From the NCBI GenBank assembly GCA_030583885.1, contig CP129480.1:620001-684000 (forward strand): a DNA stretch of 64,000 nt, in the 5' to 3' direction. Positions 50,015 to 58,414 of this stretch are shown piece after piece (positions within the stretch are counted from its first letter, which is position 1; each line of letters begins with the position of its first letter). The notes below the pieces were generated by a model, which did not search any database, had not been told where the DNA came from, and worked only from the letters and a program-made list of their open reading frames with translations. The translations under genes and the position numbers were made by a program. The stretch is from Anaerolineales bacterium (GTDB lineage Bacteria; Chloroflexota; Anaerolineae; Anaerolineales; Villigracilaceae).

Positions 50015-51889
50015 ATGTTACGAAACCGTATGTTTTTTGTTCTAGGCTTGCTGGTCATCGCCAGCATGGTGCTTGCCGCTTGTGGCGGCACTGCCCCCGC
50101 TGAACCTGTTGTTGAAGAACCTGTTAGTGAACAGCCCGCCGGTGAACAGCCCGCGGAAGAGCCTGCTGTGCAGGCTTCCTTCACCACCCCTCATCCGATC
50201 CTGAGCGACCTGCGTGTGCGCCAGGCCATGTCCTACTGCACCAACAAAGAGGACCTGATCAAGTCAGTGTATCCTCTTCTGGATGAGGAAGAACAGGCCT
50301 CCCTGATCATGCACACCTTCATCCCGCGCGCTCACTGGGCATATGCCGGTGATGAGAACGTGACCATCTACGAATTCGATCCGGAAAAGGGCAAGGCTTT
50401 GCTCGAAGAAGCCGGCTGGACCGGTGAAGGCTTCCGCGTCAATGCCGCCGGTGACGAACTTGCCCTCAAGTTCACCACCACCGCTGCCGCCTTCCGTGTG
50501 ACCTGGGCTTCCATTTGGGAAGCTCAGATGGCTGAGTGCGGCATCCGTGTTGTCCGCCTGCATGCCCCCGCCTCCTGGTGGTTCGGTGATACCACTGGTC
50601 TCGCCCGCCGCGACTATGAATTGGGCGCGTTCGCATGGGTTGGCCAGGCTGACCCCGGCGGTCAGACCCTGTATGCCTGTGACCAGATCCCGCTGCCTGA
50701 AAACGGCTGGGAAGGTCAGAACGGCATGGGCTGGTGCAACCAGCTTGCCAGCACCAACATCAAACTGGCGAACAACACCCTCATCAAGGATGACCGCATT
50801 GCGGCCTACACCATCGTCCAGCAGGAATTTACCAAGGACGTTCCCTCCATTCCTCTCTTCAACCGCACCGAAACCTTTGCGACCTCCGCTGACCTGAGCG
50901 GCTTCGCTCCCGCCCCCGGACAGGAATACTACAACTACAACGTCCAGGAATGGGCAAAAGCCGGCTCCGACACCGTCGTTCTTGGTTTCACCCAGGAACC
51001 CGCCTCCCTGTTCACCCTGGTGGAAGATGCCTTCGTAGCCAATATTGCCTACCAGATCGCCCGCCCCGCGCAGGAAACCCACTTGAACTATGACTTCAAG
51101 GCGGAACTGGTCAAGGAACTGCCGACACTCGAAAATGGCGGCACCACCAATAACGATGTCGAGGTCTCCGCAGGCACCATGGTTGTGGACGCCAACGGCG
51201 ATGTGGTCGAACTTGCCCCCGGCGTGTCCGTGATCAACGCTGCCGGCGAGACCGTTGAATTCACTGGCGGCACCGTCACCATGAAGCAATTGGTCTCCAC
51301 GTTTGAATTGATCGACGGCCTGACCTGGGAAGACGGCACACCGGTGACCGGTGCGGACCTCGAACTGGGTTACAAGATCGACTGTGACAAGGAATCCGGC
51401 GCGACCTCCTTCATCACCTGCGACAAGACCGCGAGCGTGGATTTCACCGCCAACGGCTATGTCCAGACCTGGATCCCCGGCGTTCAGGACCCGCTATACT
51501 TCGTCCCTGTCTGGCGGATCTATCCCGCCCATCAGTTGGGCGATCTTCCCGCCAAGGATTGGGCGACCGATCCCCGCGTGGCTGAGCAGCCCCTTTCCTA
51601 TGGTCCGTACAAGCTCGTCGAATGGGTCAAGGGCGAGAGAATGGTCTTCGAAGCCAATGAATATTGGGTCGGCGGCGCGCCTGCCTCCCCGAGGTTCATC
51701 ATCGCCTTCATTACCCCTGAAAGCGCCGAAGCGCTGCTCCTCAGCGGCGAAGTTGACATCCTGGCTTCCGAGTCTTTGGCCGGCCTGAGCGAGTCTTTGG
51801 TGGCTGCCGAGGACGCTGGCAGGATCGTGACCTACACCGAAGCCGGTGGCACCTGGGAACATATCGACATCCAGTTGTTCATCCGCTAA
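50015..51889 (+). CDS. Circularly permuted peptide-type ABC substrate-binding lipoprotein
   Basis: From the ATG behind GGAGGAG the protein has 624 residues with a lipobox VLAAC and a Glu/Pro-rich linker. Next comes HPILSDLRVRQAMSYCTNKEDLI, which in family 5 binding proteins (DppA/OppA) begins the C-terminal half, running to YYNYNVQEWAKA, normally the protein's end. Only then appears TVVLGFTQEPASLF, normally the N-terminal start, continuing through DGLTWEDGTPVTGADL and YGPYKLVEWVKGERM to WEHIDIQL and stop. The halves are therefore swapped with the signal retained. It is the first gene of the importer operon and should deliver the substrate. Confidence 0.85.
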   Translation: MLRNRMFFVLGLLVIASMVLAACGGTAPAEPVVEEPVSEQPAGEQPAEEPAVQASFTTPHPILSDLRVRQAMSYCTNKEDLIKSVYPLLDEEEQASLIMHTFIPRAHWAYAGDENVTIYEFDPEKGKALLEEAGWTGEGFRVNAAGDELALKFTTTAAAFRVTWASIWEAQMAECGIRVVRLHAPASWWFGDTTGLARRDYELGAFAWVGQADPGGQTLYACDQIPLPENGWEGQNGMGWCNQLASTNIKLANNTLIKDDRIAAYTIVQQEFTKDVPSIPLFNRTETFATSADLSGFAPAPGQEYYNYNVQEWAKAGSDTVVLGFTQEPASLFTLVEDAFVANIAYQIARPAQETHLNYDFKAELVKELPTLENGGTTNNDVEVSAGTMVVDANGDVVELAPGVSVINAAGETVEFTGGTVTMKQLVSTFELIDGLTWEDGTPVTGADLELGYKIDCDKESGATSFITCDKTASVDFTANGYVQTWIPGVQDPLYFVPVWRIYPAHQLGDLPAKDWATDPRVAEQPLSYGPYKLVEWVKGERMVFEANEYWVGGAPASPRFIIAFITPESAEALLLSGEVDILASESLAGLSESLVAAEDAGRIVTYTEAGGTWEHIDIQLFIR

Positions 51890-51917: not shown

Positions 51918-51949
51918 TTGGGGTAGGCATGGAGACATGCCTACCCCAA
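51918..51949 (+). promoter_or_regulatory. Intercistronic stem-loop between binding protein and permease
   Basis: TTGGGGTAGGCATG-GAGA-CATGCCTACCCCAA forms a perfect 14-bp stem. No U-run follows. Such structures often stabilise the upstream mRNA so that more binding protein than permease is made. Confidence 0.7.
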
Positions 51950-51994: not shown

Positions 51995-53194
51995 ATGACT
52001 GCGTATCTGATCCGCCGCGTTTTGCAATCCATATTGGTTGTTTTCATTTCAGCGGTTGCCACCTATACCTTGTTGAGCTTCGCGCCCGGGGGACCCATGG
52101 CGGGGCTGCGCCAGATCACACAATCTGGACGGTTTCAGATCACAGAAGAGGATATTGCCCGCATCCGCGCCTCCTTTGAGTTGGACTTGAACCTGACCGT
52201 TCGTTTCAGCCGCTGGTTTATTGGCGCACCGCGCGGACCTGTGGTGATCGGCGGGAAGGAATATTTTGGCGACATGGTGGTTGGCTGCCGCAAGCCGATC
52301 GAGGCGGAAGTTCTAAATTCACGCGGTGTATACGAGATTAGAGAAGTGGGATGCAGGGAAAACGTTTATTTGAAGGACCTCGTTGGGCGGCGTACCAGCG
52401 ACGGTATTCTGCGGGGCGATTTTGGCTTGTCCTGGCGTCTTTTGCGTGACCGCCCGGTCAGCGACCTGATCCTGAGCCGCCTGCCAAAAACCCTCCAATT
52501 GATCGGGCTTGAAGTCATCCTCTCGCTTATCATTGGAATTCCATTGGGCATTTATTCAGCCGTTCGGCAATATTCCAAGTTTGATTATATTTTCACCACG
52601 CTGGCATTTATGGGGTCAGCCATGCCCAGTTTCTTCTTTGGTTTGCTCTTGATCCTGGTCTTCTCGATCATTCCCAGGAGCGCGGGGCTGCCCTACATCC
52701 CCGCCGGTTTATCCGAATCCCTGCGTGACTATACGATTCCGATGATCGGCTACGTGGTTGCTGGTTCGGCCAAAGACCGGGTTTTGCACCTGATCCTGCC
52801 GGTCACCGTGCTGACCTTGATCAATGTGGCGGTCTGGAGCCGTTTCATCCGCGCCAGCATGCTGGATGTATTGCGTCAGGACTACGTCCGCACGGCGCGC
52901 GCCAAGGGTTTGCGTGAGGTGGTTGTCATCATGAAACATGCCCTCCGCAACGCCCTGATACCGTTCGTTACGATCGTGGTGTTTACGATACCGGCCCTTT
53001 TCAGCGGCGCGATCATCACCGAGAGCATATTCGCCTGGCCCGGCATGGGACGTTTGTACATCCTTGCCCTGGGTGATTATGATTACCCGGTGGCCATGGC
53101 GATCTTCTTCATCCTGGCGGTTCTGACCGTGATTGCAACACTGCTGCGCGATATTCTATATACGATTGTGGATCCACGCATTCGTTTAAACTAG
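51995..53194 (+). CDS. ABC transporter permease, DppB/OppB type
   Basis: The 399-residue permease begins MTAYLIRRVLQSILVVFISAVATYTLLSF, the standard first membrane segment of DppB-type proteins. The EAA loop is ARAKGLREVVVIMKHALRNALIP. A periplasmic insertion of about 100 residues (around 70-150, containing EVGCRENVYLKDLVGRRTSDGI) lengthens it compared with typical DppB of about 340. It forms the channel with the following permease. GGAGAA precedes the ATG. Confidence 0.92.
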   Translation: MTAYLIRRVLQSILVVFISAVATYTLLSFAPGGPMAGLRQITQSGRFQITEEDIARIRASFELDLNLTVRFSRWFIGAPRGPVVIGGKEYFGDMVVGCRKPIEAEVLNSRGVYEIREVGCRENVYLKDLVGRRTSDGILRGDFGLSWRLLRDRPVSDLILSRLPKTLQLIGLEVILSLIIGIPLGIYSAVRQYSKFDYIFTTLAFMGSAMPSFFFGLLLILVFSIIPRSAGLPYIPAGLSESLRDYTIPMIGYVVAGSAKDRVLHLILPVTVLTLINVAVWSRFIRASMLDVLRQDYVRTARAKGLREVVVIMKHALRNALIPFVTIVVFTIPALFSGAIITESIFAWPGMGRLYILALGDYDYPVAMAIFFILAVLTVIATLLRDILYTIVDPRIRLN

Positions 53195-53212: not shown

Positions 53213-54211
53213 ATGACTGTATCTGCCCAATTGGACAAGCTCGATTCCGAAGCCATTATCATCGAGGAGCGCACCCCGTTCCAGATCGTCTTCCGCCGTT
53301 TTGTGCGCCATCGTCTGGCAATGGCCTCGCTGGTTGTCATGATAGTTATTTTCAGCGTGACCATTCTGGCGCCCTACATCACCTCTTTTCGGGTGGATGA
53401 ACTGAACGTCAACAAATACTTTGTCCCATTTGGAACGGTGGATGAGCCGACCGGCCGCGTGCATTATCTGGGCACGGATAATATTGGCCGCGATTACTTT
53501 TCCCGCTTGATCTATGCCGGGCGCATCTCGCTGACCGTGGCGTTGTTCTCCGTATTTATCGCGGAGACCATCGGCATCTTTGTGGGGGCGATCTCCGGCT
53601 TTTACGGGAAATGGGTGGATGCCGTTCTCATGCGCTTTGTGGAATTCATGCTGACCATTCCAACATTGCCGCTGCTGCTGATCATCTCCTCCATGCTGAT
53701 AAGGAATGAAGACCTGATCCCCATCCCGGATTCGGTGCTGAGGTTTGTGGGAAATATCATGTTGCTCAGTCCCAGGGATGCGCGCAGTGCGGTGTTGATC
53801 ATCATTGTTTTGGCCGGCTTTGGCTGGCTGGCCGCCGCACAGTTGATGCGTGGTACGGTTTTGTCCCTGCGCGAGCAGACATTTGTGGAGGCGTCCCGTT
53901 CCCTGGGCGCCACGAACATCTGGATCATCTTGAAACATATGATCCCAAACGCCATGGCCCCGATCATTGTGGATGCGTCCCTGGGGCTTGCGGGTTTTGT
54001 GGTCGCGGAGGCTGCGCTTGCATTCCTTGGCTTTGGCATTCAAGACCCGATTCCCACCTGGGGAAACATGCTTTCTGCAACGCAGACCTACATGTTCGAC
54101 AGGCCCTGGCTGCCTCTGCTGCCCGGAATACCGATCTTTTTATGTTCCCTTGCCTTTAACTACATTGGCGACGGTCTGCGCGACGCGCTGGATCCCCGTT
54201 TGAAGTTATAA
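53213..54211 (+). CDS. ABC transporter permease, DppC/OppC type
   Basis: A 332-residue permease with an N-terminal cytoplasmic segment, FVRHRLAMASLVVMIVIFSVTIL, the LGTDNIGRDYFSRLIYAGR motif typical of DppC, and EAA loop EASRSLGATNIWIILKHMIPNAMAPI. The segment SGFYGKWVDAVLMRFVEFMLTIPTLPLLLIIS is also family-typical. It pairs with the upstream permease; the spacing of 18 bp shows one operon. Confidence 0.93.
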   Translation: MTVSAQLDKLDSEAIIIEERTPFQIVFRRFVRHRLAMASLVVMIVIFSVTILAPYITSFRVDELNVNKYFVPFGTVDEPTGRVHYLGTDNIGRDYFSRLIYAGRISLTVALFSVFIAETIGIFVGAISGFYGKWVDAVLMRFVEFMLTIPTLPLLLIISSMLIRNEDLIPIPDSVLRFVGNIMLLSPRDARSAVLIIIVLAGFGWLAAAQLMRGTVLSLREQTFVEASRSLGATNIWIILKHMIPNAMAPIIVDASLGLAGFVVAEAALAFLGFGIQDPIPTWGNMLSATQTYMFDRPWLPLLPGIPIFLCSLAFNYIGDGLRDALDPRLKL

Positions 54212-54244: not shown

Positions 54245-55279
54245 GTGGCGACAAATATTCAAAAACCCTTGCTCGAAGTACGTAATCTTAAGACGTATTT
54301 TTATACCGAGGATGGCGTGGTGCGTGCCGTGGACGGCGTAAGTTTTGAAGTGAACAATGGTGAAGTGCTTGGGATTGTGGGCGAATCCGGCTGCGGAAAA
54401 AGTGTTACCTCCCTTTCCATCATGCGTTTGATCGGCCAGCCCGGCAAGATCGAAGAGGGCGAAATCATCTTTGATGGCAAGGACCTGGTTAAAGCCACGG
54501 AAGAAGAGATGATGAAGGTGCGCGGAAACCGCATCTCCATGATCTTCCAGCAGCCCCAGTCCGCGCTTAACCCCGTGTTTCGAGCCGGCGACCAGATTTC
54601 CGAGGTGCTTAATATTCACCAGGATTTTGGGAAGGAAGCGGGCAGAAACCGTGCCATTGAATTACTGAAACTGGTGGGGATTCCCGAGCCGGAAAGCCGC
54701 GCCGAATCCTTCCCGCATGAACTTTCCGGCGGCATGGCGCAGCGCATTATGATTGCCATGGCGCTGGCCTGTGTGCCGGACCTGTTGATCGCAGATGAGC
54801 CCACCACCGCTCTGGATGTGACCATCCAGGCCCAGATTTTGGACCTGATGAGGGATATGCGTAATCAATTGGGTTCCTCCATGATCCTGATCACTCATGA
54901 TCTCGGCGTGATCGCCGAGATGGCACACCGCGTGGCGGTCATGTACGCGGGTGAAATTGTGGAGCAATCCCCTGTAGCCACGCTTTTTGACCAGCCGCTT
55001 CATCCTTATACGAAGGGTCTGATCGGTTCGATCCCGGTCCTGGGCGAAGTCCGTGAACGCCTGGACGTTATTCCCGGCTCCGTGCCGAACCTGGTGAATC
55101 TGCCGGCTGGCTGCCGTTTTGCTCCTCGTTGTCTGGCACGCATTGAACATAATTTATCAGTTTGTACTGATAGACGCCCTGAATTAACGGAAGTTGCCGA
55201 GGGACACAAAGTACGCTGCTGGCTTTTCCAGGACTCCGATGAACATGTTGCCCCGCTAAAGCAGGCAAGCAAATCCTAA
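54245..55279 (+). CDS. ABC transporter ATP-binding protein, DppD/OppD type
   Basis: The 344-residue ATPase starts at a GTG behind GGAG. Walker A is GESGCGKS, the signature is LSGGMAQR, Walker B is [12 protein letters not shown], with switch His in [12 protein letters not shown]. The C-terminal oligopeptide extension ([30 protein letters not shown]) carries the spaced cysteines found in Dpp/Opp ATPases, which can hold an iron-sulphur cluster. It powers the importer together with the next gene. Confidence 0.94.
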
Positions 55280-55289
55280 TAGAGATGAT

Positions 55290-56288
55290 GTGGCGATGAA
55301 TACTAAATTGAACACTCAAGAAAAGCCAGACCTGCTGGTTGTAAAGAAGCTTACAAAATACTTCCCTGTCCGCTCCGGTGTTCTTCAGCGTGTCACAGCC
55401 TGGGTACAGGCTGTGGACAAGGTGAGCTTTGCGATAAAAAGCGGCGAGACTCTGGGCATGGTGGGTGAATCTGGTTGCGGAAAAACGACCGTCGGTCGTT
55501 CCATACTTCGCCTGATTGAACCGACTTCCGGCGAAGTTTCCTTTAATGGGGAAAATATTATCACCATGCGGCCAAAATCGCTCAAAACCCTGCGCCGCGA
55601 CATGCAGATCATCTTTCAGGATCCCTACGCTTCCCTTAACCCCCGTATGCCGATCGGCGAATCCGTCATGGAGGGATTGCAGATCCATAAGATTGGCAAC
55701 CCCAAGGAGCGCTGGGAGGTTGCCATCAACATGCTCAAGAAGGTGGGTCTGGAGGAATATCATGCCCGCCGTTACCCGCATGAGTTCTCCGGCGGACAGC
55801 GTCAGCGCATCGGGATTGCCCGTGCTTTGGCTTTACAGCCGAAATTCATCGTCTGTGATGAGCCGGTCTCGGCGCTGGATGTTTCCATCCAGTCGCAGGT
55901 TTTAAATATTCTCAGGGACCTGCAAAAGGAATTTGGCCTCACGTATCTATTCATTGCGCATAACCTGAGCGTGGTGGAGCATATCTCCGACCGCGTGTCG
56001 GTGATGTATTTGGGCAAGATGGTGGAATTGACGGATCGCGATTCGCTGTACCGCGAGCCTTTGCATCCCTATACAAAGGCTTTGCTCTCTGCCATTCCGA
56101 TTCCCCATCCCAATATTAAGCGCGAACGTACCATCCTCAAGGGTGATGTGCCAAGCCCGCTTAACCCGCCCAGCGGCTGTCGTTTCCATACCCGCTGTCC
56201 CATTGCCGTTGAACATTGTTCGCAGGAGGAGCCTGAGTTCAAGGAAGTCAGGCCCGGGCATTGGGTGGCCTGCTGGCTGGCTGAATAG
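55290..56288 (+). CDS. ABC transporter ATP-binding protein, DppF/OppF type
   Basis: The 332-residue ATPase shows Walker [22 protein letters not shown], signature [15 protein letters not shown], Walker [13 protein letters not shown] and the C-terminal [17 protein letters not shown] cysteine segment. The given start is a GTG; an in-frame ATG two codons later (55296, MNTKLNTQE) is equally possible. It is the last transport gene of the operon and is followed by a strong terminator. Confidence 0.94.
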
Positions 56289-56367: not shown

Positions 56368-56441
56368 TATAATGCCCACGGTCACAAATTGCGCTTTGCC
56401 CCTTCCGAAAAAGGGCAATTTGTGACCGTGCTGGGTATAAT
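56368..56441 (+). promoter_or_regulatory. Promoter -10 and long inverted repeat upstream of the second binding protein
   Basis: TATAAT at 56368-56373 is followed by CACGGTCACAAATTGC (56377-56392) and its exact complement (56415-56430), a 16-bp stem with a 22-nt loop. A second TATAAT lies at 56436-56441, immediately after the repeat. The element could be an operator dyad or an RNA hairpin at the transcript start. Confidence 0.6.
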
Positions 56442-56497
56442 TGCAGCCATTGTTATACGCTTGCATATCCTGTACTACATCAATTCGGCAGACAGTC

Positions 56498-58414
56498 TTG
56501 AAATATTTTCATCCTCCCCTTGCGCTGATTATTGTCATCCTTCTTGCCGGCTGCTCAAGATTGCAGTCACAGGTGGAAACTCCGACTGCCTTGTTCACAC
56601 CATTGCCAACCGTGACTCCGTCACTCCCGGCGCCCGCCTCCCTGACTGTCTGTCTTGGACAGGAACCCAACACCCTTTACCCTCTCGGTGGACCGAACGC
56701 CGCCGCACGCAGCGTGTTGGCCGCGGTCTATAACGGACCGATTGATACAATCAGCTACGAATATCAGCCTGTGATCCTTGCCCGTCTGCCGTCCATTGAA
56801 AACGGCGAAGCGCAAATTGTCAGAACACAGGTGCAGGCTGGAGGTCAGGTTGTGGACGCGGATGGTGATCTCGTTGCTCTGGAAGCAGGTGTGCGTGTCC
56901 GTCCTGCCGACTGCCGCGATGATGAGTGCGTCATCACCTATGACGGTGTGTCCCCGCTGGAGATGGATCAGATGGTCGTAAATTATCGTTTACGTCCGGA
57001 TCTGACCTGGGCAGACGGCACGCCTCTCACCGCCGATGATTCCGTATATGCTTTTGAACTCGAAGCGGATGCGGAAACGAATCCTTATTTGATTGGCCGC
57101 ACACAGGTGTACGAAGCCGCCGACGAGCAGACCTTGCAGTGGTGGGGCGTGCCTGGTTTTATGGACCCCGCGTATTTTACGAATTTTTGGGCGCCTGCGC
57201 CGAAGCATCTGTGGAGTCAATTTTCCGCCGACCAGTTGCCTTCCGTTGACATTGCTTCGCGCACGCCGATTGGCTGGGGACCCTACACGGTGGTGGAGTG
57301 GATTGCGGGCGACCACATCACGCTGGTGAAGAATCCGTATTACTTCCGCGCCGCAGACGGTTACCCAAAAATAGACATCCTCTCCTTTCGCTTCATCCCC
57401 GACCCGAATACGGCTCTGAGCGAACTGGTTGCAGGCCGCTGTGACATTCTCGACCCATCCATAAATTTGGATAATCAGGCGGGCTTGTTGCGGGAAATGC
57501 AGGCCGCCGAACAGGCGCAGGCATTTTTTGCAACCGGCATGTCGATTGAATGGCTTGGTTTGGGGCTTGTCCCGGCCTCTTATGATAACGGCTATGATAT
57601 TCAGCGGGACCGCCCAAATTTCTTTGCGGATGCGCACACCCGCCAGGGCATTGCCTATTGTCTTGACCGTCAATCGGTTGTGAATAACGTGCTGTTTGGA
57701 TTGACAACCGTCCCGACGACCTATGTTCCGGATGACCACCCTGTGTTTGATGCGCAGATTGCGGGGATTCCCCATGACCCTGAAGTTGGGATCTCGCTGC
57801 TCGAACTGGCAGGCTGGCAGGATACTGACGATGATCCATCCACGCCGCGCCGCGCAGTGAGCGTCTCGAATGTCGCTTTCAACACCCCTCTGCAGTTGAA
57901 TTACTACACCACATCCGCCACCCAGCGCAGACAGGTGGTGGAAATCCTTGAGCGCTCGCTTGCGGAATGCGGCATCGGACTCCGTGTGCAGTATTTTACC
58001 CAGAACGATCTCTATGCCCCCGGCCCCGCTGGGTTTCTCTTTGGGCGCAGCTTTGACCTGGCGGAATATGCACTCGGCGTTAACAGCATCGAACCTCCCT
58101 GCACCTGGTTCAGCAGTGCGGAAATTCCCTCCGCAGATAATTCGTGGATTGGCACGAACGTGCCTGGTTTCAGCAATGCCGAGTATGATGCCGCCTGCCG
58201 CGCCGCACAACAGGCACTGCCTGACGAACCGTCGTATGTTAATTCGTATCGCCAGACTCAGATCATATTTTCAAGCGAGCTTCCTGCAATTCCCCTGTAC
58301 CACCGTTTGCGGATCGCCGCCGCAGGCCCTGAAGTTTGTCATTTTGGGCTGGACCCAACCGCCACCCCGCTCTGGAATATCGAGGCGATTGACATCGGTG
58401 ATGCCTGCAGATAA
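56498..58414 (+). CDS. Peptide-type ABC substrate-binding lipoprotein, canonical order
   Basis: I prefer the TTG start that gives LKYFHPPLALIIVILLAGC, a proper lipoprotein signal with lipobox LLAGC; a frame from 56441 adds 19 unlikely residues. The 638-residue product is a family 5 binding protein in normal order: LTVCLGQEPNTLYPLGG, DLTWADGTPLTADDSVYAF, GWGPYTVVEWIAGDHITLVKNPYYF, then HTRQGIAYCLDRQSVVNNVLFG and LLELAGW. It lies beyond the importer terminator with its own promoter, so it may serve the same permease under other conditions. Confidence 0.88.
   Translation: MKYFHPPLALIIVILLAGCSRLQSQVETPTALFTPLPTVTPSLPAPASLTVCLGQEPNTLYPLGGPNAAARSVLAAVYNGPIDTISYEYQPVILARLPSIENGEAQIVRTQVQAGGQVVDADGDLVALEAGVRVRPADCRDDECVITYDGVSPLEMDQMVVNYRLRPDLTWADGTPLTADDSVYAFELEADAETNPYLIGRTQVYEAADEQTLQWWGVPGFMDPAYFTNFWAPAPKHLWSQFSADQLPSVDIASRTPIGWGPYTVVEWIAGDHITLVKNPYYFRAADGYPKIDILSFRFIPDPNTALSELVAGRCDILDPSINLDNQAGLLREMQAAEQAQAFFATGMSIEWLGLGLVPASYDNGYDIQRDRPNFFADAHTRQGIAYCLDRQSVVNNVLFGLTTVPTTYVPDDHPVFDAQIAGIPHDPEVGISLLELAGWQDTDDDPSTPRRAVSVSNVAFNTPLQLNYYTTSATQRRQVVEILERSLAECGIGLRVQYFTQNDLYAPGPAGFLFGRSFDLAEYALGVNSIEPPCTWFSSAEIPSADNSWIGTNVPGFSNAEYDAACRAAQQALPDEPSYVNSYRQTQIIFSSELPAIPLYHRLRIAAAGPEVCHFGLDPTATPLWNIEAIDIGDACR

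Follow-up and report, generated by a model that had tools for sequence, protein, structure and literature searches.

Gene and operon organization of the locus

The 64,000-nucleotide window of the Anaerolineales genome, that is, the whole stretch of DNA that was analyzed, contains an operon on its forward strand in which a gene for a solute-binding protein (SBP) is followed by genes for two permeases, two ATPases, and a second SBP. In the first of these genes, the halves of a cluster C SBP lie in swapped order behind the lipoprotein signal. The features of the gene and its surroundings, in window coordinates, are as follows:

50015..51889 (+): permuted solute-binding lipoprotein gene, 624 aa; an open ORF whose order is common to 103 distinct homologs
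50015..50083 (+): lipoprotein signal peptide with lipobox LAAC (Cys23), still at the front, from sequence
50084..50179 (+): flexible Pro/Glu-rich linker, aa 24-55, with pLDDT < 50 in the model
50180..50845 (+): domain III (aa 56-277), first part of the old C-terminal half and now N-terminal; canonical profile 317 onward, DppA chain 268-500
50846..50887 (+): hinge strand 2 (aa 278-291), linking domain III covalently to domain I; a long strand in the model, equivalent to E575-587 of canonical L135
50888..50953 (+): old C-terminal segment (aa 292-313), ending ...YYNYNVQEW; corresponds to the chain end (...ATEYATWNIAEWEKG) that canonical L135 has naturally
50954..50971 (+): AKAGSD (aa 314-319), the new junction from old C-terminus to old N-terminus; a short linker of near-constant length in homologs
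50972..51823 (+): old N-terminal half, domains I/II (aa 320-603); canonical profile 6 onward
51824..51886 (+): hinge strand 1 plus tail (aa 604-624, ...GGTWEHIDIQLFIR), which have become the C-terminus; a 15-residue strand in the model, equivalent to E330-344 of canonical L135
51918..51949 (+): perfect 14-bp RNA hairpin in the interval between the SBP stop and dppB; MFE -31.4 kcal/mol, z -5.9
51995..53194 (+): DppB-type permease, whose clade tracks the permuted SBP
53213..54211 (+): DppC-type permease
54245..55279 (+): DppD-type ATPase
55290..56288 (+): DppF-type ATPase
56441..58414 (+): second SBP of the operon, in canonical order, used as control; ORF start at 56441, signal-peptide Met at 56498

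The lipobox Cys23 is invariant in 28 aligned permuted homologs, and the sequence that follows the signal peptide and Pro/Glu-rich linker reads ...FTTPHPILSDLRVRQAMSYC... in the window protein. The hairpin at 51918-51949 has no T-run and is perhaps a stabilizer of the SBP message or an attenuator of the permease genes.

Sequence evidence for a swapped order of the two halves

The Pfam profile PF00496 (SBP_bac_5) matched the window protein at 136.7 bits (cut-off 32.4) in two stretches, the better of which placed aa 425-591 on profile positions 16-182, whereas the protein encoded at 56441-58414 gave one collinear match. PDB chains also aligned in swapped order; with 4oet, query residues 426-583 corresponded to chain 61-215 and query residues 56-219 to chain 246-395. 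We compared both proteins with a canonical profile of 573 positions compiled from 32 canonical-order relatives. Residues 53-312 of the window protein matched positions 317-573 (230 bits), while residues 316-620 matched positions 6-311 (240 bits). The whole SBP_bac_5 domain set is thus present, with 6-311 and 317-573 of the 573 positions covered, and the usual linear order of cluster C proteins, domains I and II ahead of domain III, is reversed. Restoring the usual order in silico yielded a single match to profile positions 5-573 at 484 bits, the optimum falling at a cut in the range aa 312-320. The canonical paralog from the window was collinear with the profile when unaltered (704 bits) and fell into two separate matches when artificially permuted at the equivalent place. 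Judged at the level of sequence, the two complementary pieces, with few profile positions missing, are the signature of a clean circular permutation with essentially no loss or duplication. A preliminary description of this DNA had placed the usual C-terminal half directly behind the lipoprotein signal and the usual N-terminal half after it, with the protein at 56498-58414 as an internal control of usual order. That half order and its coordinates are borne out by Pfam, the PDB chains, and the canonical profile, the alignment check of the halves placing each on its expected part of the profile in swapped order; the control likewise behaves as proposed, with its one collinear match.

Predicted structures and the position of the cut

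The AlphaFold2 model of the permuted protein (pLDDT 82, pTM 0.76) contains long strands at 278-291 and 604-618, compared with 575-587 and 330-344 in the model of the canonical control, and its order of elements is rotated relative to the canonical model. The short linker at aa 311-320, which bears indirectly on whether the old termini lie close together in the fold, was modeled with a block pLDDT of 95. As Foldseek aligns sequentially, a full match of the permuted model cannot show, and the canonical model served as the control. About half of the permuted model aligned to OppA/DppA/NikA-type structures, over 219-335 columns in nearly all of the matches listed and with a TM score to target of at most 0.37 among them, whereas the canonical control aligned to this family over nearly its whole chain (541-600 columns, TM up to 0.84). 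We infer a fold like that of OppA/DppA, ligand closure by the same two-strand hinge, and handover to DppBCDF.

In the structure of EppA, domain III is contiguous and flanked by two antiparallel hinge strands (PMC7312458), which places the cut in the loop that directly follows hinge strand 1; neither hinge strand is therefore lost, and strand 1 is now a free C-terminal strand. The cut makes domain III N-terminal and hinge strand 1 C-terminal, and it moves the entry point of the membrane tether from domain I to domain III. A canonical relative from genome G281 (L091/L135) is uncut at the place of the new termini, which lies mid-chain (...SPTWEHMDFNTLARTNKDSKERKAPHPLLGDKTVRQA..., region WEHMDF...PHPLLGD), and its chain end reads ...YATWNIAEWEKG; in the G281 relative compared as L091/L165, the uncut loop reads ...SPTWEHMDFNTLARTNKDSKERKAPHPLLGD... 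and the C-terminal end is again ...YATWNIAEWEKG. The permuted proteins have a domain start of the form ...TTPHPILxDxxVRQA and a chain end of the form ...TWEHIDxxLxxK/R, the chain ending exactly 11 residues from the W of the latter motif in 95 of the 103 homologs, and a short linker joins their old C-terminus (...EW) to the old N-terminus (DTVVLGFTQEP). A further feature of the N-half is a Cys pair at aa 457/469, invariant in the 28 aligned permuted proteins and with no matching pair in canonical L135; it possibly forms an extra disulfide.

Phyletic distribution and integrity of the permuted gene

When the family, class, and phylum were searched along with 84,980 species genomes, 103 distinct, near-complete ORFs of the permuted type were recovered. 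They come from two class-level groups within Chloroflexota, one being the class of the window itself and the other a group with Roseiflexaceae-type genomes. In the 28-member alignment, permuted homologs share the same order over their full length, with 48-85% identity to the window protein. The preliminary description had proposed looking for the same order in relatives, and these 103 homologs answer that check. Occurrence outside Chloroflexota was covered by one pattern scan of the 84,980 species genomes, in which the permuted matches were titled Chloroflexota, bar one Singulisphaera MAG (L054). The protein from this MAG has the same length and 50% identity to the window protein as those of Roseiflexaceae L052/L053, so the MAG is probably misnamed.

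This distribution bears directly on whether the swapped order could be an assembly artifact or a chimeric contig, the true gene having the usual order. We consider that explanation extremely improbable, given that the window genome consists of one contig of 4.4 Mb, that the 103 distinct ORFs come from independent assemblies, including the single-contig G011, G180, G368, G627, G641, and G669, and that the gene is under purifying selection, with dN well below dS in both halves. The rearrangement is thus old and conserved, and neither chance nor a sequencing error accounts for it.

In two genomes, G222 (L174, G222:C70) and G732 (L175), a frameshift interrupts the permuted gene, which may reflect either error or decay. 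In G222, the gene forms two ORFs (397 + 348 aa) divided at the junction. This form was considered as a two-gene intermediate and rejected, as the ORFs lie in different frames with a 35-nt overlap and hence represent a frameshift; in G732, the frameshift lies elsewhere in the gene than the junction.

Phylogeny and origin of the permutation

All permuted sequences form one clade in trees of the C-half (support 99), the N-half (100), and the concatenated halves (100). In the C-half tree, the sister of this clade is a canonical pair from G281 and G313 (support 87); the N-half tree neither recovers nor rejects the placement of the G281 lineage as sister (AU p = 0.40), and the concatenated tree leaves it open. 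Similarity scores differ between the halves: the C-half scores 301 bits against G281, and no canonical protein outside the G281/G313/G177 group exceeds 170; for the N-half, f53 proteins are the top canonical matches at 213 bits, compared with 141 for G281. Such a pattern could be taken to mean that the protein is a chimera, with halves drawn from two different SBP genes rather than from one permuted ancestor. However, the permuted sequences form one clade in each half-tree, the sister group of the C-half tree is not rejected by the N-half tree, and the lower N-half score of G281 is at least partly due to a missing domain II insertion, which together make a chimeric origin very unlikely.

Independent support for the link to the G281 lineage is provided by the permease genes. 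The DppB proteins adjoining permuted SBPs form one clade (99), and the group uniting them with the DppB of the canonical operons of G281 and G111 has a support of 98. The canonical SBP of G281 occupies the same position in an SBP-B-C-D-F operon and has a near-sister DppB. This canonical relative approximates the unpermuted ancestor, and one permutation of a canonical gene already located ahead of dppBCDF is the simplest history. The permuted gene would have originated once, probably when a canonical gene at this place in the operon was duplicated in tandem and in frame (or rearranged to equivalent effect) and then cut back to a single copy behind the signal peptide it already had. The tandem duplication with trimming invoked in the preliminary description is plausible, but an N-C-N-C tandem intermediate was not found among the homologs recovered. 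Its central proposal, a natural circular permutation in a cluster C SBP, is supported by the sequence, the homologs, the half-trees, and the structure predictions alike.

Permease linkage and inferred function

The order SBP-dppB-dppC-dppD-dppF is kept in most of the operon loci examined, and most permuted SBPs are encoded directly upstream of dppBCDF. The presence of a lipobox together with DppB-C-D-F downstream marks the protein as lipid-anchored and linked to oligopeptide-type ABC genes. In close relatives of the window genome, a further SBP, of canonical order, closes the operon, giving two receptors for one transporter. The corresponding operon of G100, from the same genus, has a canonical SBP in its first slot. 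Identity between G100 and the window is 47% for DppB and 52% for DppC, as against 85% for DppD, 86% for DppF, and 63% for the last SBP, and permuted-linked DppB proteins of another class are closer to that of the window (53-58%) than is the same-genus DppB of G100. By these comparisons of sequence, the first SBP and the permease pair seem to have been exchanged as a unit, which would imply specific docking of the permuted SBP with its permease. In the operons at L109 and L108, compared with that of the window within one genus, the first SBP and DppB/DppC have diverged jointly (identity 45-47% for DppB and 40-52% for DppC), while DppD and DppF have kept 79-92% identity.

Taken from its N-terminus, the chain runs from the lipid anchor through the flexible linker, domain III, hinge strand 2, the old C-terminus, and the AKAGSD linker, and then through the old N-terminus, domains I and II, and hinge strand 1 to the stop. 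We regard it as very probable that this is a real, functional cluster C solute-binding lipoprotein with its chain circularly permuted at the lobe hinge, once and long ago, and inherited together with a dedicated permease. The operon and the co-phylogeny of DppB point to ligand binding and delivery to the permease as its putative role, and the near-invariant SWWFGDTTGLARRDYELGAFAWVGQADPGG stretch suggests one conserved ligand.

Alternatively, the protein may no longer be a transporter SBP, being instead a sensor or the product of a decaying gene whose place in the operon is merely kept. Permuted paralogs away from dpp permease genes (L104, L106, L107, L181, and L183) indicate that non-transport roles may exist, and the two frameshifted copies of the permuted gene would fit with decay. 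Set against this are the retention of the SBP-B-C-D-F order across two classes, a DppB phylogeny that tracks SBP type, stretches such as SWWFGDTTGLARRDYELGAFAW that are nearly invariant in the 28-member alignment, and the low dN relative to dS, and we judge a loss of the transport role to be very unlikely. Second permuted paralogs in L104, L105, L106, L107, L180, L181, and L183 have no dpp permease neighbors in the stretch read, which for L105 and L180 lies near contig ends; these proteins are possibly sensors or shared receptors.

The preliminary description had called the protein dipeptide-type, a label that holds at the level of the family but does not extend to the binding mode. In Escherichia coli DppA, Arg383 and Asp436 bind the dipeptide termini (PMC12136057). 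In a single low-identity alignment, these two charged residues (precursor numbering) align with Leu151 and Gln211 of the window protein, making a DppA-like dipeptide mode unlikely. The protein also falls below the curated NCBIfam DppA cut-off (48.7 bits versus 1005).

Comparison with known binding proteins

Few bacterial binding proteins are as common as those of the OppA/DppA type, for which a single chain order is assumed. The canonical cluster C proteins, including the Thermus thermophilus peptide-binding protein 2D5W, AppA (1XOC), NikZ (4OET), DppA (1DPP), and EppA, are homologous to the window protein over both halves. As in these proteins, the expected fold is bilobed and built of three domains, with an antiparallel hinge of two strands, and the partner genes are of DppBCDF type; unlike them, the window protein starts at domain III, ends with hinge strand 1, and carries its lipid tether on the domain III side. 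The canonical relatives from G281 (L091) and G313 (L136) score 301 and 238 bits, respectively, to the permuted profile over the C-half, but differ from the permuted proteins in having the usual order and in lacking both the domain II insertion and the Cys457/Cys469 pair.

In the open-licence papers searched, we found no report of a permuted cluster C/SBP_bac_5 protein, and TpMglB-2 (Tp0684) of Treponema was the sole precedent found there for natural permutation among binding proteins; a paper on permutation search, CIRPIN, makes no mention of solute-binding or periplasmic proteins. TpMglB-2, assigned to ‘cluster Bc’, is a naturally permuted, lipid-anchored ABC-transporter binding protein that binds ligand and changes conformation, and in which three N-lobe strands have moved to the end and a fourth hinge crossing has been added (PMC4990184). 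It has a cluster B sugar-binding fold, whereas the window protein belongs to cluster C and is cut at the hinge with no extra crossing needed; moreover, both of its halves, unlike those of TpMglB-2, are recognizable by sequence. In agreement with this assignment, the listed Foldseek and PDB sequence matches are of OppA/DppA/NikA type (cluster C) rather than cluster B. The authors of the TpMglB-2 study suggested a link between permutation and membrane tethering (PMC4990184), which by analogy would also fit the window protein.

The locus thus represents a genuine permutation, ancient and conserved, within a protein family that is very large and has been studied in depth; its structural identity is near certain, and its functional consequences are put forward here as hypotheses. 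The fixed permutation, a canonical relative in the same operon slot, and within-genus swaps between permuted and canonical operons form a natural test system, in which the effect of hinge chain connectivity and tether site on flytrap closure and permease docking is testable. Profile annotation hides the permuted members, as Pfam just gives two SBP_bac_5 stretches.

Domain-III-only proteins of apparent permuted origin

Four loci (L092, L093, L094, and L177) encode proteins in which a permuted-type domain III is followed directly by a WEHIDxNL hinge strand and then by a beta domain at the C-terminus; L092 has two tandem copies of the domain III unit. The beta domain had no significant Pfam match in the two proteins scanned (L092 and L177). 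Since this particular hinge strand lies after domain III in the permuted order only, these proteins look like permuted SBPs minus domains I and II, with the two hinge strands closed into a hairpin. A plausible intermediate towards them is encoded at L181:6035-8500 (-): this 822-aa chain holds an entire permuted SBP and, at its C-terminus, a beta domain related to theirs (28-32% identity, E down to 5e-16).

We tentatively offer a wider scenario, which we hold to be slightly less probable than its opposite: one ancient hinge permutation may have founded a subclass, ‘cluster Cc’, locked to its own DppB/DppC lineage, with the tether on domain III, a free C-terminal hinge strand, and altered opening mechanics or docking, and may have made domain III excisable, giving rise to the domain-III-only proteins with their hinge-strand hairpin. 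Separately, a domain-III-like match with 35% identity was observed at G111:C1:27209-27889, inside an open frame of 3860 codons.
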